44,514 nt of DNA from Acholeplasma sp. (lineage in GTDB: Bacteria > Bacillota_I > Bacilli_A > ML615J-28 > CAG-698), in contig DUOW01000036.1 in the NCBI GenBank assembly GCA_012838635.1, forward strand, positions 1 through 44,514. The letters are read 5' to 3'. The notes beneath the pieces are model-generated. The model saw only the letters and a list, made by a program, of their open reading frames with translations. It did no database searches and had not been told where the DNA came from. The translations under genes and the position numbers were made by a program. Below, piece by piece: positions 36,287 through 41,643 of the stretch; position 1 is the first letter of the stretch, and the number at the start of each line of letters is the position of its first letter.

Positions 36287-36313
36287 AAAAAAGTCTGTAT
36301 AAACAGACTTTTT
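36287..36313 (-). terminator. intrinsic terminator of the DUF1189-like gene
   Basis: On the minus strand AAAAAGTCTG-TTTATA-CAGACTTTTTT. The stop codon TAA of the upstream gene overlaps the base of the stem. Confidence 0.88.
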
Positions 36314-37421
36314 AAATAGTTTCTTGATAGCTATTAATTTTGGAAACTACGACTAAGTAATAGATAGCAAATGCAAATACATACCAAGAAAGAACATCAG
36401 GCCAGAACCACGATACAATAAATACAACTAAAACTGGTATTAATGAGGCGATTGCAGCTATATTATAATATTCTTTAAACTTCTTAAGTTGTGAACTTTG
36501 CTTTCTAAAGGCAAGCCAAATTAAGAAGACAATTACTAATGGATAAATAAATGTATAAATAAAGCTCCAGAATGAAGTTGCTGTTGCAGCATTTCTAGCA
36601 TATCCTAAAACAACGATTCTTGACATATAATCAAAGAATTGTTGGGCATTATTACCTTCATAATCTTTATATGTGTATAAATAATCACTATTCCAAAATC
36701 TTTTGCTTTGAAGTTGATTAGCTACATCAACAATATCACCATTTTCATTAAGCATTTTACAGTCAATTACATAATGAATAGCATCTGTATTTAAGACAAT
36801 AGAAACATAATTTTCAATTTTGATATTACCAGCATCATCTTTCCAACTATATGCTTCAGCTCTAAATTCAGGATACTTAGCTGGCATATCTGGATTTGCT
36901 ACAAAATCACGATAAGGAACAATCTTTAGTTTATCTTTATCTTTTAGTTCATGATCAGTAGTTTTATTAAATAAATCTACATATAAATTAATATGTACTG
37001 TCTCTACATCATCTTTTTTGTATTGCATCTTAAAGATATGTCTTTCATCTTCGTCAAATTCACCATTTTCTTTCACAAGATCCCAAGTGTTTGACTTTTC
37101 ATTTTTCTTCACAAACAGTTTAAGATTATAGAAATCTTCTAAAACCTCATTTAAGTTACCTACTTTTCCAATAACTACATTATTCTCATCAACTTCATTA
37201 TCACTTACAGGTACCTTAGTTAAATACTGTAAACCTAAAACATTTCTGTTTTCAATCCATGAATAGTTGTTATGCTCATAGTTATAATTTACTGGTACTA
37301 CTGTTATTACCGATGCTGCCACAAAAATCAAAACAGAAATTAAAACAGACATATACTTATATCGAGCCATTTTAATTGGTATTACTAATGATTTTAAAAA
37401 ATCTAAAAACTTTTCTTTCAT
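36312..37421 (-). CDS. DUF1189-like integral membrane protein
   Basis: 369 residues. Cytoplasmic start KEKFLDFLKSLVIPIKMARYK, one membrane helix (SVLISVLIFVAASVITVVPVNY), a large extracytoplasmic domain of about 220 residues, then three or four C-terminal helices (FIYPLVIVFLIWLAF, IAAIASLIPVLVVFIVSWFW, YVFAFAIYYLVVV). The order resembles DUF1189 (YvdJ-type) proteins, but I am unsure of the family. The extracytoplasmic part is rich in Asp, Asn and Tyr with no catalytic motif. It has its own promoter next to the stop of the HEPN-like gene. Confidence 0.6.
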   Translation of the reverse strand: MKEKFLDFLKSLVIPIKMARYKYMSVLISVLIFVAASVITVVPVNYNYEHNNYSWIENRNVLGLQYLTKVPVSDNEVDENNVVIGKVGNLNEVLEDFYNLKLFVKKNEKSNTWDLVKENGEFDEDERHIFKMQYKKDDVETVHINLYVDLFNKTTDHELKDKDKLKIVPYRDFVANPDMPAKYPEFRAEAYSWKDDAGNIKIENYVSIVLNTDAIHYVIDCKMLNENGDIVDVANQLQSKRFWNSDYLYTYKDYEGNNAQQFFDYMSRIVVLGYARNAATATSFWSFIYTFIYPLVIVFLIWLAFRKQSSQLKKFKEYYNIAAIASLIPVLVVFIVSWFWPDVLSWYVFAFAIYYLVVVSKINSYQETI

Positions 37422-37477: not shown

Positions 37478-38590
37478 TTAATTATACTTCAAATAAGAAC
37501 CAAAAGCATATAAAAGTACTTGATCATTTTCTTTAATGATTTTATCTAACCAATTAGCTAAATCATTATATTTTTTATTCTGCTTTAACTTTTTAACTAA
37601 ACTTTTGAGAAACTTAAGATATAAAGGATGAGTATAATCGTTATATAAATTATAATTCTTATCCTTTTGTTTACGTAAATCACGTTTCAAACGATTTAAA
37701 TCAGCAGCACCATCAAAAACTAACTTTTGTTTTCTAGCTTGACTATTTACTTGTCTTTCTAAATCATACAAAGATTCATATAGCTTCTTAATTTCTAAAA
37801 AAGTTAAATGTTTGACATATTTATTTTCTTCTAAGTTAAACAGATAATTAATATTGTTTACACGCCAAATAATACGATCATTTGTATTATCAATTTCCAT
37901 TAACTTTTGATAATTTTCTTTAATTTGGTTTAGATTTTTAAAATCTTTTTCCCCATTTACATAATTATTAAATAAAACAGTAGCTAGATCTAATAGATTT
38001 ACTGCTTCTAAATTTAACTTTAAATCCAAGAATCTTGAAGTTGATTGTAAGTTCGTCATTGTTTCTAAAAGATAACTATTAATTACTTCAATCATATCAA
38101 CAGTTCTTCTTTCAACATCATCACTATCATCAGTATAAATTGAATAAGAAATCTTTGATTCTGTCATTTTATCAAAATCTAAAATACAAAAACCAATTGT
38201 ATTATTATCATAATAACGATATGTTGGGTGCCCAACAACATCATTTCTAATTCTTTTGATTTCTTTTAAAACTTTATTTTGGTTTAAACCGATTAAAATC
38301 TTATTTAAACCTAAAGACCTGCTAAGAGAATATAAAGCATCAATCCCCGCAAATATCCCTTGTAATAGGCCAAATAAAAGCAATAACTGCTCTTGTTTCT
38401 TCCTTTCTACCTTATAACTTACTAAATATTCATCAATAATATAAGAGATATTTTCTAAAGTGAAAATTGAAGTATAAGCCATTTTTTTGTAAAACTTTGA
38501 TTGAAAAATTTTGTCTTGATAAGCTGGATCTTCTAGTTTTTGTTTTAAAATTTGAATCTTTTGAAAATTATTTTGTAGCAACAAGTTCAC
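37478..38590 (-). CDS. HEPN-motif-like helical protein, function unknown
   Basis: Predicted all-helical and soluble. It holds VLKEIKRIRNDVVGHPTYR, an Rx5H motif preceded by a helical region (LFGLLQGIFAGIDALYSL). This is the pattern of HEPN proteins, whose Rx4-6H forms an RNase or nucleotidyl-transfer site. The rest is charged and rich in Lys/Asn/Leu. The ORF runs to 38647, but the first codons lie in the 3' end of the upstream gene with no ribosome binding site; GTG 38590 or TTG 38584 after AAGAAGGGA is more likely (about 370 residues). Either way it overlaps the GGDEF/EAL-like gene and is coupled to it. HEPN membership is my inference. Confidence 0.5.
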   Translation of the reverse strand: MNLLLQNNFQKIQILKQKLEDPAYQDKIFQSKFYKKMAYTSIFTLENISYIIDEYLVSYKVERKKQEQLLLLFGLLQGIFAGIDALYSLSRSLGLNKILIGLNQNKVLKEIKRIRNDVVGHPTYRYYDNNTIGFCILDFDKMTESKISYSIYTDDSDDVERRTVDMIEVINSYLLETMTNLQSTSRFLDLKLNLEAVNLLDLATVLFNNYVNGEKDFKNLNQIKENYQKLMEIDNTNDRIIWRVNNINYLFNLEENKYVKHLTFLEIKKLYESLYDLERQVNSQARKQKLVFDGAADLNRLKRDLRKQKDKNYNLYNDYTHPLYLKFLKSLVKKLKQNKKYNDLANWLDKIIKENDQVLLYAFGSYLKYN

Positions 38591-41576
38591 TTCCCTTCTT
38601 AATCTTCTTTCCTCTAACAAGAATCTTCTCATAATCAGGATAAGCATAGTTTGTAAGTAAAGTTAAGTCATTTTCTTTTGCAAATTTCAAAACAAAATCG
38701 CGCTCACTGCTAACAATGTTACTATCAATATTAATTCCTTCAATCTTTAAATTATATAAATCACTTGTCTTTAATTTTTTAAAACTATCTAAATCTAAAA
38801 ACACTTTTAAGTTATATTGCTTTAAATATTTAATAACGTCTAGTAAATCTTGATGGTAATCATAAATGATTAAATTAAGTTTTTCATAAATTTTACTATC
38901 ATCTAAAGCAAATTCATTTTTGCCAATTAAATCAAGAATTGTTTTAATATTTATTTTAAAATAAAATTCACCTTTTTTATTTTCAATTTCAAGTAAAACT
39001 TTATTAAATAAGCTACTTTCAAACTCAATTAACTCATTAACATCTAAATAACTTAAAGGGTTAGTAGCTGTAGGCATACCTTTTAAATTAAAGAAAGCTT
39101 CATATTGATCCTTTTTTGTATAACTTAAATAAAGAATTTCTAAATCTTCTTCTTCAATTTTCTCAAAAGCTGCTTTTATTGCTTTTTGTTCTAAGTAAGA
39201 TGCTCTTAATTTACGATCAAACATTGTAATTTCATCTGTGTTCATTAAGGCAAGATTTAAAGCATCAAAGCATTCTAAAACTGGCATATTATCACGAGGA
39301 TAACGAATATAAGCAGTTTTTAGCTCCAAATTGATCTTTCGACCTTGATAATCTATTCCTAAACTTAATGTTTGGAAAAGATCTTTAATTTCCTTTTCAA
39401 TGCTTCTTTGATTTGTTTGCTCGGTAAAAACAAATAAATCAAAATTATCTAAAAGATAAATATTCTTAGGATAACATTCTTCTATCTTTTTGTAAACTTC
39501 TTCAATTAGATGATTGTGTAAATCTTTTTGATAACTAAATTTATTTAAGTTTACAATTCTAAAAGCTATTACCGTAAATTTATACTCTAAATCTTTAAGT
39601 TTGTCTTCTTCTAACTTTAATCTATTTTGAAAATCAGTTTGATTATAAACAGTTGTTTTAAAGTCAGCAACTTTAAGTCTGCTTGCTTCTTCTAACTTTG
39701 TTATCGTCCCTACAAACGTAACTAGTTTTCCATCACTAGAAATATATGGTCTTAAGTTTTCTTTTACTAAAAACTCTTGGTCTTGAATACTTAAAGCATA
39801 AATTATCTCATTAGCTTCAAGTTTACCTATATTTTTATAGGCAATTTCATATTTTTGTAAATGCTTAGGACTAATTAACTTTTTATATTCAGACCTTGCA
39901 AGAATAGGATTATGGACATTCAAAAACTTTTGTAAAGCTTCATTAATGATCATTTGATCTTTAGATAGATCTAAATAAAACATTCCTTCTTGGAGAGATT
40001 CAATTGCTAAGTTTAAAACATTAGACTGAAACTCTTCATTTTCTTTATAAAAGTAAGCAGTTAAATAATAAGTAAGTAAAGATGCCCCTAATTTTAATAG
40101 CATAATATTTTCATTATCCATCATTTTAGCTGATGAGTCTTTAAAAATGACACTAGCAAATAAGTCCTCATGAAAATATAAAGGCACAGCTACAACTCCT
40201 GCAGTCTTCATTGCATCATATGTAGGTCCTTGAATGATTGTTTTATAGTTTGCAAGTTCGATATCAGAAGCAATAATTGTTTGATTTTGTACCATTAGTT
40301 TTTCTATAACCGTATGTTCTAAATCAGAATATGATAACAATCTTTCATATAATCTTTCTTTTTTATAGTTATAACTTTTAATACGATCTTTATTTCTTAA
40401 GAAATCAGGAAGTTTATCAAAACTAGTTTCATTAAAAACAACTAATAAACTTGAATCAAATGAAGCATATTCACTAAGTTCTTTAAAGAAACTAATTAAA
40501 CTCGTTCTAATATCTTCTTTTTCAAATAAAACCTTAGTTAAGTGAATTGTCTTCTCAATCTTTATAATTGCTTCATTTAACTTAGCGTTTACTTCTAAAT
40601 ATTTATCATCTTCATTAATGTCATGGAAAAGTAAGTTTTCACTTCTTCTAATCTCTTGATCTAAAGTAATAATTTGCATAATAATTGAATATAAACTATT
40701 CTTATATTGCATATTACTAGAAACTAAACCTAGCAAATTGTTTTCTAAAAATAGTTTCTTATTGTATGCATCATTACTAGATAAATACGATGAACGATAT
40801 CGATTAATAAAACTAAACAAAGTCTCATAATCTTTTAAGTCAAGTAATAATTTTAAATATTCATTACCAATTCCTAAAAAACTTTCCTCAAGTTCAGTAC
40901 GTTCTTTAAATAATACTTGGAATTGCATTTTAGCCATTAAATAATTATCTTCTAAAACATAAAGTTTTGCATTTAAATAATTAATATATTCTAGGCCTTC
41001 ATAGTCTTCTAATTTCTTTATTAAAGGTATGCATTTATTAATTGCATCTTTAGCTTTTCCTAATTCTTTTTCATCAATATATAACCTAGCAAGGTTAGAT
41101 AATACTAATGATTCTAATTCCATTGTAGGGTAGTTATTTAAAATAACAAGTAAATTAGTAATAGCTTTATCCTTTTGATCTAACTCAGCATAAATATAGC
41201 TCATCTCTAAATACCAACGATTAACAACGTCAGTATTATTATCGTCTAAATAATTTCTTTTAATTAAAGCATAACGATAAGCAGATTTATAATTCTTTTT
41301 TGAAACACAAATATAAATAATAACCTCTAAATAAGAGATATAAATATTCGGATAATTAATAATGTTTAAATCGTTAATTGAACTACTTGCAAGTTCAAAA
41401 GCTTGATCTAACATATTGTTTTCTAAATACAAATTAATAATCAAAAGGTTAAAACGATAACTAGTTTCATTATCTCCTTGAATTTTTGCCTGTCTTACAA
41501 AATCTTCAAGTTTTGGTAAATCATTTAAACCTATATACGAATTAGCTATTGTTTCATATTTTTCTTTTAAACTCAT
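38568..41576 (-). CDS. TPR-GAF-PAS protein with degenerate GGDEF and EAL domains
   Basis: 1002 residues, no signal peptide or membrane helix. Residues 1-290 are TPR-like helical repeats (AYRYALIKRNYLDD, YAELDQKDKAITNLLVILNNYP). About 355-510 reads as GAF, 520-635 as PAS-like (ESLQEGMFYLDLSKDQMIIN), 640-785 as GGDEF and 790-995 as EAL. The signature GGDEF is NFDLF (711-715), and EAL is EAF in QYEAFFNLKG (826-828). Later EAL metal/catalytic positions are also lost (KINIK for the NxS position, FLDLDSF for the DDFG segment). It is therefore probably a c-di-GMP or nucleotide sensor rather than an enzyme. The start has AAGGAG upstream and its own promoter. Confidence 0.7.
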   Translation of the reverse strand: MSLKEKYETIANSYIGLNDLPKLEDFVRQAKIQGDNETSYRFNLLIINLYLENNMLDQAFELASSSINDLNIINYPNIYISYLEVIIYICVSKKNYKSAYRYALIKRNYLDDNNTDVVNRWYLEMSYIYAELDQKDKAITNLLVILNNYPTMELESLVLSNLARLYIDEKELGKAKDAINKCIPLIKKLEDYEGLEYINYLNAKLYVLEDNYLMAKMQFQVLFKERTELEESFLGIGNEYLKLLLDLKDYETLFSFINRYRSSYLSSNDAYNKKLFLENNLLGLVSSNMQYKNSLYSIIMQIITLDQEIRRSENLLFHDINEDDKYLEVNAKLNEAIIKIEKTIHLTKVLFEKEDIRTSLISFFKELSEYASFDSSLLVVFNETSFDKLPDFLRNKDRIKSYNYKKERLYERLLSYSDLEHTVIEKLMVQNQTIIASDIELANYKTIIQGPTYDAMKTAGVVAVPLYFHEDLFASVIFKDSSAKMMDNENIMLLKLGASLLTYYLTAYFYKENEEFQSNVLNLAIESLQEGMFYLDLSKDQMIINEALQKFLNVHNPILARSEYKKLISPKHLQKYEIAYKNIGKLEANEIIYALSIQDQEFLVKENLRPYISSDGKLVTFVGTITKLEEASRLKVADFKTTVYNQTDFQNRLKLEEDKLKDLEYKFTVIAFRIVNLNKFSYQKDLHNHLIEEVYKKIEECYPKNIYLLDNFDLFVFTEQTNQRSIEKEIKDLFQTLSLGIDYQGRKINLELKTAYIRYPRDNMPVLECFDALNLALMNTDEITMFDRKLRASYLEQKAIKAAFEKIEEEDLEILYLSYTKKDQYEAFFNLKGMPTATNPLSYLDVNELIEFESSLFNKVLLEIENKKGEFYFKINIKTILDLIGKNEFALDDSKIYEKLNLIIYDYHQDLLDVIKYLKQYNLKVFLDLDSFKKLKTSDLYNLKIEGINIDSNIVSSERDFVLKFAKENDLTLLTNYAYPDYEKILVRGKKIKKGSELVATK

Positions 41577-41603: not shown

Positions 41604-41616
41604 CCATAAAATATAA

Positions 41617-41643
41617 CAAAAAAGGATAGAAAAATTCTATCCT
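41617..41643 (-). terminator. intrinsic terminator of dtd
   Basis: On the minus strand AGGATAGAA-TTT-TTCTATCCT and then TTTTT. The dtd stop codon TAG is at the base of the 5' arm. It closes the apt-rel-dtd unit. Confidence 0.88.

Follow-up and report, generated by a model that had tools for sequence, protein, structure and literature searches.

The 44,514-base contig DUOW01000036.1 of an Acholeplasma sp., analysed here as a whole (the window), carries on its minus strand two adjacent genes, called X and Y below, which are probably an undescribed regulator of RNA turnover, because several bacterial families have retained both proteins together. In the reading that we prefer, and to which we give slightly less than an even chance, they would be a conserved two-gene sensor-effector module controlling RNA turnover, X being a catalytically dead platform similar to CsrD of Escherichia coli and Y a HEPN-type endoribonuclease. 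With somewhat less confidence still, we consider it possible that a dead GGDEF-EAL protein has turned into a controller that serves only its own HEPN-type ribonuclease (RNase), forming in Acholeplasma-type bacteria an RNA-decay switch independent of cyclic di-GMP (c-di-GMP), and that Y represents a fast-diverging HEPN family lying outside Pfam, NCBIfam and PADLOC. Literature searches for the pair found nothing, and no such pair was described for Acholeplasma laidlawii, in which 14 GGDEF/EAL proteins were counted (PMC2408644). Both open reading frames (ORFs), already reported in a preliminary description of this DNA, are open on the minus strand:

38568 to 41576, minus strand: X, 1002 residues, a cytoplasmic TPR-coiled coil-GAF-PAS-degenerate GGDEF-degenerate EAL protein (ORF, orthologues, AlphaFold, Foldseek)
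37478 to 38647, minus strand: Y, 389 residues as first called, a putative HEPN-type RNase (ORF; AlphaFold predicted local distance difference test (pLDDT) 84.6, predicted template modelling score (pTM) 0.82)

The link between X and Y is strong. It was followed in 395 genomes sampled across the class and in a phylum sample of 392 genomes; the named records of the window's own family (f1) belong to uncultured Acholeplasmatales-like Bacilli and are for the most part metagenome bins. X was found in 25 of the 28 f1 genomes, including all 14 of good quality, and Y in six, always directly after X and before a third gene, Z, wherever the contig continues. Y was also found in families f10, f15 and f21 of the class sample, and in no other family among the 392 phylum genomes. 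The co-occurrence that the preliminary description proposed to check was confirmed, X being present in 47 of the 51 genomes of the class sample that carry Y (Fisher p 1.5e-39, kinship ignored) and in 41 of 45 outside f1. Conservation as neighbours was confirmed in three families: in f1, f10 and f15 the genes lie next to each other on one strand in 32/32 Y-bearing genomes, mostly with overlapping or touching frames and in two unrelated contexts, but most genera of the window's family lack Y. The coordinates place X and Y side by side in every one of the 26 Y-bearing genomes of f10 and f15, where Y directly follows a protein of about 1000 residues that passes the Pfam cut-off for EAL (E 1e-7 to 3e-14) and that the combined X profile matches over its whole length; a profile built from f1 alone already matched two of these proteins (E 1e-9 and 7e-18). 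Their EAL domain is also dead, with Y-E-S-[DE] and with LDTTSVE in place of LDDFGxG, and the gene upstream of the pair is choline-kinase-like, not rel-dtd. A scan of the genome contigs with the single X protein gave nothing; an alignment query gave 24 loci. Since the Y tree sorts by family and only four changes are needed to place the presence of Y on the X tree, vertical inheritance with losses is the simplest account. In four f21 genomes Y was present without a detected X, possibly because the X search scored two candidates per genome. In the f21 loci L145, L146, L147 and L148, Y immediately precedes typA/BipA, the gene of a translation GTPase, and X is located elsewhere in the genome, which hints at a ribosome- or RNA-related role for Y.

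The overlap of Y with the 3' end of X, one of the original observations, is real and supports translational coupling; its extent is probably 14-17 nucleotides and not the 80 of the first call. The true start of Y is probably the TTG at 38584 or 38581, giving about 367 residues, because AAGAAGGGAAGTGAAC is followed there by TTG TTG and the sister species uses this start. In one f15 genome (G188, around C1:1082569-1086748) X and Y are each broken into two frames, perhaps by joint decay or by a sequencing error in both.

The reading of X as a TPR-GAF-PAS-GGDEF-EAL protein is nearly certain. Its parts, to which a long helix predicted by AlphaFold between TPR and GAF-like domain (residues 292-352) has to be added, are as follows:

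40716 to 41570, minus strand: TPR region, residues 3-287 (Pfam TPR in many orthologues, AlphaFold helices, Foldseek TPR matches, invariant columns)
40047 to 40511, minus strand: GAF-like domain, residues 356-510 (AlphaFold, Foldseek GAF matches, alignment)
39696 to 40004, minus strand: PAS domain, residues 525-627 (Pfam PAS E 0.0024; PDB profile match 3mr0 E 2.8e-4; AlphaFold)
39222 to 39668, minus strand: degenerate GGDEF domain, residues 637-785 (profile, AlphaFold, Foldseek, alignment)
38595 to 39215, minus strand: degenerate EAL domain, residues 788-994 (AlphaFold, Foldseek, alignment; homologues elsewhere pass the Pfam EAL cut-off)

Single-sequence Pfam matches to X were weak (TPR E 2e-4, PAS E 2e-3, GGDEF E 0.64), with no EAL match, and the family profile matched TPR, PAS and, marginally, GGDEF, together with the PDB profile 6khu (GGDEF) at E 0.049. 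The domain order proposed earlier was upheld by structure prediction: the AlphaFold model reached a pLDDT of 83.9 with 22 sequences, and Foldseek matched it to PAS-GGDEF-EAL and related structures (DosP, PA0861, PA0575, MorA and LapD), all at probability 1.00, so that both the GGDEF fold and the EAL barrel are recognised. The overall pTM of 0.37 is low, as expected for a chain of separate domains, and only single domains were interpreted. The Kyte-Doolittle profile of X (19 residues) contains no hydrophobic segment above 1.6, in agreement with the cytoplasmic multi-domain protein first proposed. The TPR region, which contains the motif NRWYLEM (41196-41222, minus strand), is the best conserved part of X and the GGDEF-EAL part the least conserved; the alignment shows that the motif YKKERLY of the GAF-like domain (40338-40367) also occurs in the Acholeplasma-type X.

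Alignment of the X proteins examined with three GGDEF-EAL proteins from within the family shows that both catalytic sites are gone, as the degenerate signatures in the preliminary description had indicated. NFDLF (residues 711-715, 39432-39446) aligns with the GGDEF motif of the intact proteins, and neither the GG[DE]EF active site nor the metal-binding Asp residues are present; no aligned X protein keeps the GGDEF catalytic set, an isolated acidic residue is seen here and there in some columns, and RYPRD (39291-39305) is retained. In the EAL domain, EAF (residues 826-828, within 39090-39101) aligns with EAL, FLDLDSF (38781-38801) replaces xLDDFGxG, and the whole set ExLxR, N, ExTE, DD, K, E and Q is changed, the first E alone being usually kept. 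Neither the window's whole genome (1.04 Mb, 98% complete) nor the sister species contains any other GGDEF or EAL domain. In the window's genome X has survived the end of c-di-GMP signalling, and both X and Y persist in genomes devoid of any other GGDEF/EAL domain. Since no such domain remains, sensing of c-di-GMP by X is unlikely; judging from its residues, X neither makes nor cuts c-di-GMP and probably does not bind it, its recognition having almost certainly been lost. The nucleotide sensing first suggested for X is not supported, the residues of the EAL catalytic and c-di-GMP site being gone. Most relatives carry 1-12 GGDEF and 1-6 EAL domains, which makes this a lineage-specific loss of c-di-GMP signalling in the window's genome and the sister species.

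In Y, two short segments carry the candidate active site:

38228 to 38248, minus strand: RNDVVGH motif, R134-H140, located where helix 3 ends, candidate RNase active site (conservation, AlphaFold model)
38330 to 38344, minus strand: IDALY in helix 2 with the invariant D103, candidate acidic active-site residue (conservation, AlphaFold model)

A pattern R[NDH]x3-5H arises by chance in 6% of shuffled Y sequences, so that its mere presence is uninformative. RND[VI]VGHP is however found in 16/16 Y homologues from four families, with R, N, D, G and H invariant, and eight of the 19 invariant columns of Y fall within 11 residues (p about 6e-7). The homologues are very divergent (24-47% identity), yet R, N, D and H and the Asp of helix 2 do not vary, which bears out the earlier assignment of RNDVVGH as an Rx5H motif of HEPN type. 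The AlphaFold model of Y is a helical bundle in which the motif Arg ends the third helix and is followed by beta-hairpins and a fourth helix; helix 119-132 holds R128, with H134 just after it, and the invariant D97 lies in helix 78-105 (model numbering, to which 6 is added for the 389-residue ORF).

HEPN proteins are defined by a conserved Rx4-6H, a polar residue after the Arg and an acidic residue in helix 2, typically as Ex3[KR] (PMC3710099). Y matches this description in its motif, the position of the motif, the polar residue after Arg and a beta-hairpin like that of Csx1; a candidate for the acidic residue of helix 2, the invariant Asp, is present, though not as Ex3[KR]. Sequence and model together make it likely that Y belongs to HEPN, and Y may accordingly be expected to act as an RNase. 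With the known HEPN RNases (HepT, RNase LS, LA2681-type, Csm6/Csx1) Y has in common R-N-x4-H ending helix 3, the Csx1-like hairpin after the motif and, as a candidate, the helix-2 acid; it differs from them by its length of about 370 residues, a large helical C-terminal half and a GGDEF-EAL partner, and it has no significant sequence or structure match to them. Pfam also returned weak matches for Y (DUF2278, oligogalacturonate lyase, LED repeat, SLATT_6), which were discarded because they came from a single member or from chance resemblance in a motif; that to oligogalacturonate lyase reflects nothing more than GHPxYR-like text. Elsewhere in the window's genome, two HepT-like HEPN genes are found (G000:C57:7234-7461 and G000:C45:25397-25603).

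Taken together, these data are compatible with a mechanism in which X would descend from a TPR-GAF-PAS-GGDEF-EAL enzyme of c-di-GMP metabolism, having lost catalysis, and would now serve as an allosteric protein-binding platform, with GAF and PAS receiving an input signal and TPR and EAL making protein contacts. Y, translated from the end of the X reading frame, would be a metal-independent endoribonuclease of HEPN type, whose activity or choice of RNA target would be set by its binding to X; the steps from this binding to RNA cutting are our proposal. To our knowledge, degenerate GGDEF-EAL proteins abound but an output is known for few of them, CsrD being the main described case of control over RNA decay. 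CsrD is a GGDEF-EAL protein of E. coli devoid of catalytic residues and of any c-di-GMP role, whose EAL domain binds EIIA-Glc, thereby sensing sugar transport, and which enables RNase E to cleave CsrB/C (PMC5027483). X resembles it in its degenerate GGDEF-EAL part and presumably in its independence from c-di-GMP, suggested by the absence of other GGDEF/EAL domains, but X lacks the membrane anchor, has TPR-GAF-PAS in a cytoplasmic protein and comes with a putative RNase of its own. The Pseudomonas protein LapD, whose structures were matched by Foldseek, is likewise a dead GGDEF-EAL fold acting on a partner; unlike X, it is transmembrane and its EAL domain still binds c-di-GMP (PMC3032553), whereas X has lost those residues and has no membrane segment. 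The best Foldseek matches, the PAS-GGDEF-EAL enzymes DosP and PA0861, share the sensory-GGDEF-EAL order with X, which adds TPR and a coiled coil and is dead at both sites. If the proposed mechanism is true, a c-di-GMP scaffold can be rebuilt into a device for RNA control. Several families keep X together with its putative RNase partner, and in the window's genome X has remained although every other GGDEF/EAL domain was lost. The pair seems to be present also in the cultured A. laidlawii, so that binding, RNase activity and RNA targets are directly testable.

Several results weigh against this sensor-effector module. X stands without Y in 19 f1 genomes, and in f21 both genes are present but unlinked, so that neither strictly needs the other. 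The best conserved part of X is TPR and not GGDEF-EAL. The HEPN fold of Y, for its part, was not confirmed: no significant match was obtained against Pfam, NCBIfam and PDB profiles, nor by hhalign against 22 HepT-like sequences (P 0.32, the best local alignment lying on the RN motif), and Foldseek returned nothing significant (best E 0.7), with nothing usable from PDB and BFVD. The HEPN assignment made at the outset is therefore sustained by the motif, its position and the helix-2 acid, and not by any profile or structure match. These last negatives could suggest that Y is a non-enzymatic helical adaptor of X in which RNDVVGHP is a structural or binding motif, the more so as the Gly within the motif and the Pro after it are as invariant as Arg and His. 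We regard this as distinctly unlikely, the invariance of R, N, D, H and the helix-2 Asp across 24-47% identity being the pattern of an active site and the motif position agreeing with the HEPN description. Since X occurs without Y in most genera of the window's family, a second function or partner of X is probable, and Z is the obvious candidate:

36312 to 37421, minus strand: Z, 369 residues, a membrane protein weakly similar to Yip1/DUF1189 and a constant neighbour on the downstream side of X in f1 and in the sister family f2

Accordingly, X could be a housekeeping scaffold working mainly with Z, for example in the control of membrane or envelope stress, with Y as an accessory joining in some lineages. 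The constant order dtd-X-(Y)-Z-nusB in f1, where most genera retain X and Z without Y, and the presence of a shortened X' before a Z homologue in f2 are consistent with this, but in f10 and f15 the X-Y pair has a choline-kinase-like gene upstream and, in the stretches inspected, no Z, and the co-occurrence of X and Y is very strong outside f1; this explanation appears unlikely to us. We find it quite improbable that X is still a receptor which binds a cyclic dinucleotide or another nucleotide and passes the signal to Y, in the way that LapD relays a c-di-GMP signal to its partner. LapD offers a precedent for binding without catalysis (PMC3032553) and is among the folds matching X, and many relatives in the family have intact GGDEF and EAL enzymes; against it stand the changed EAL set, the lack of any other GGDEF/EAL domain in the window's genome and sister species, and the low conservation of the GGDEF-EAL part. 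An anti-phage defence or toxin-antitoxin role, with Y as the HEPN toxin and X as the corresponding sensor or antitoxin, would suit the translational coupling and the many HEPN families that act in conflict systems (PMC3710099). Its probability is very small, since the pair is vertically inherited and located within the core gene order, where it is single-copy; moreover, no homologue of Y was found in viral contigs, plasmids or phages, PADLOC gave no credible match, X has 1000 residues, and the neighbours of Y are X and Z, with no adjacent MNT or other known antitoxin.

On the minus strand of the window the order of the genes is rel, dtd, X, Y, Z, nusB and xseA, with terminator- and promoter-like signals between dtd and X:

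41623 to 41643, minus strand: terminator-like (intrinsic) hairpin after dtd (fold z-score -3.0), then TATAAT near 41605, ahead of X

Because of this hairpin and the TATAAT, X and Y probably have their own transcript, starting after dtd. The promoter part is weak, as this AT-rich region has as many consensus promoters as expected by chance and the TATAAT lies outside any full promoter listed by the scan. The proximity to the rel operon, initially taken as a hint of a link with guanosine tetraphosphate (ppGpp), was given no weight: it is family-specific, the terminator-like hairpin lies between, and in f10 and f15 the pair is away from rel.

In f2 (L106-L114), the shortened X' of about 570 residues is located between dtd and the Z homologue, without TPR and without Y; it combines a part resembling GAF with what seem to be decayed remnants of GGDEF-EAL, its similarity to X being weak (E 1e-4 to 1e-9). 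Z is sometimes duplicated (L037, L039). In a coral-associated mollicute, an unannotated protein with an EAL-like region, U1, is reported to be very highly expressed (PMC11535214).

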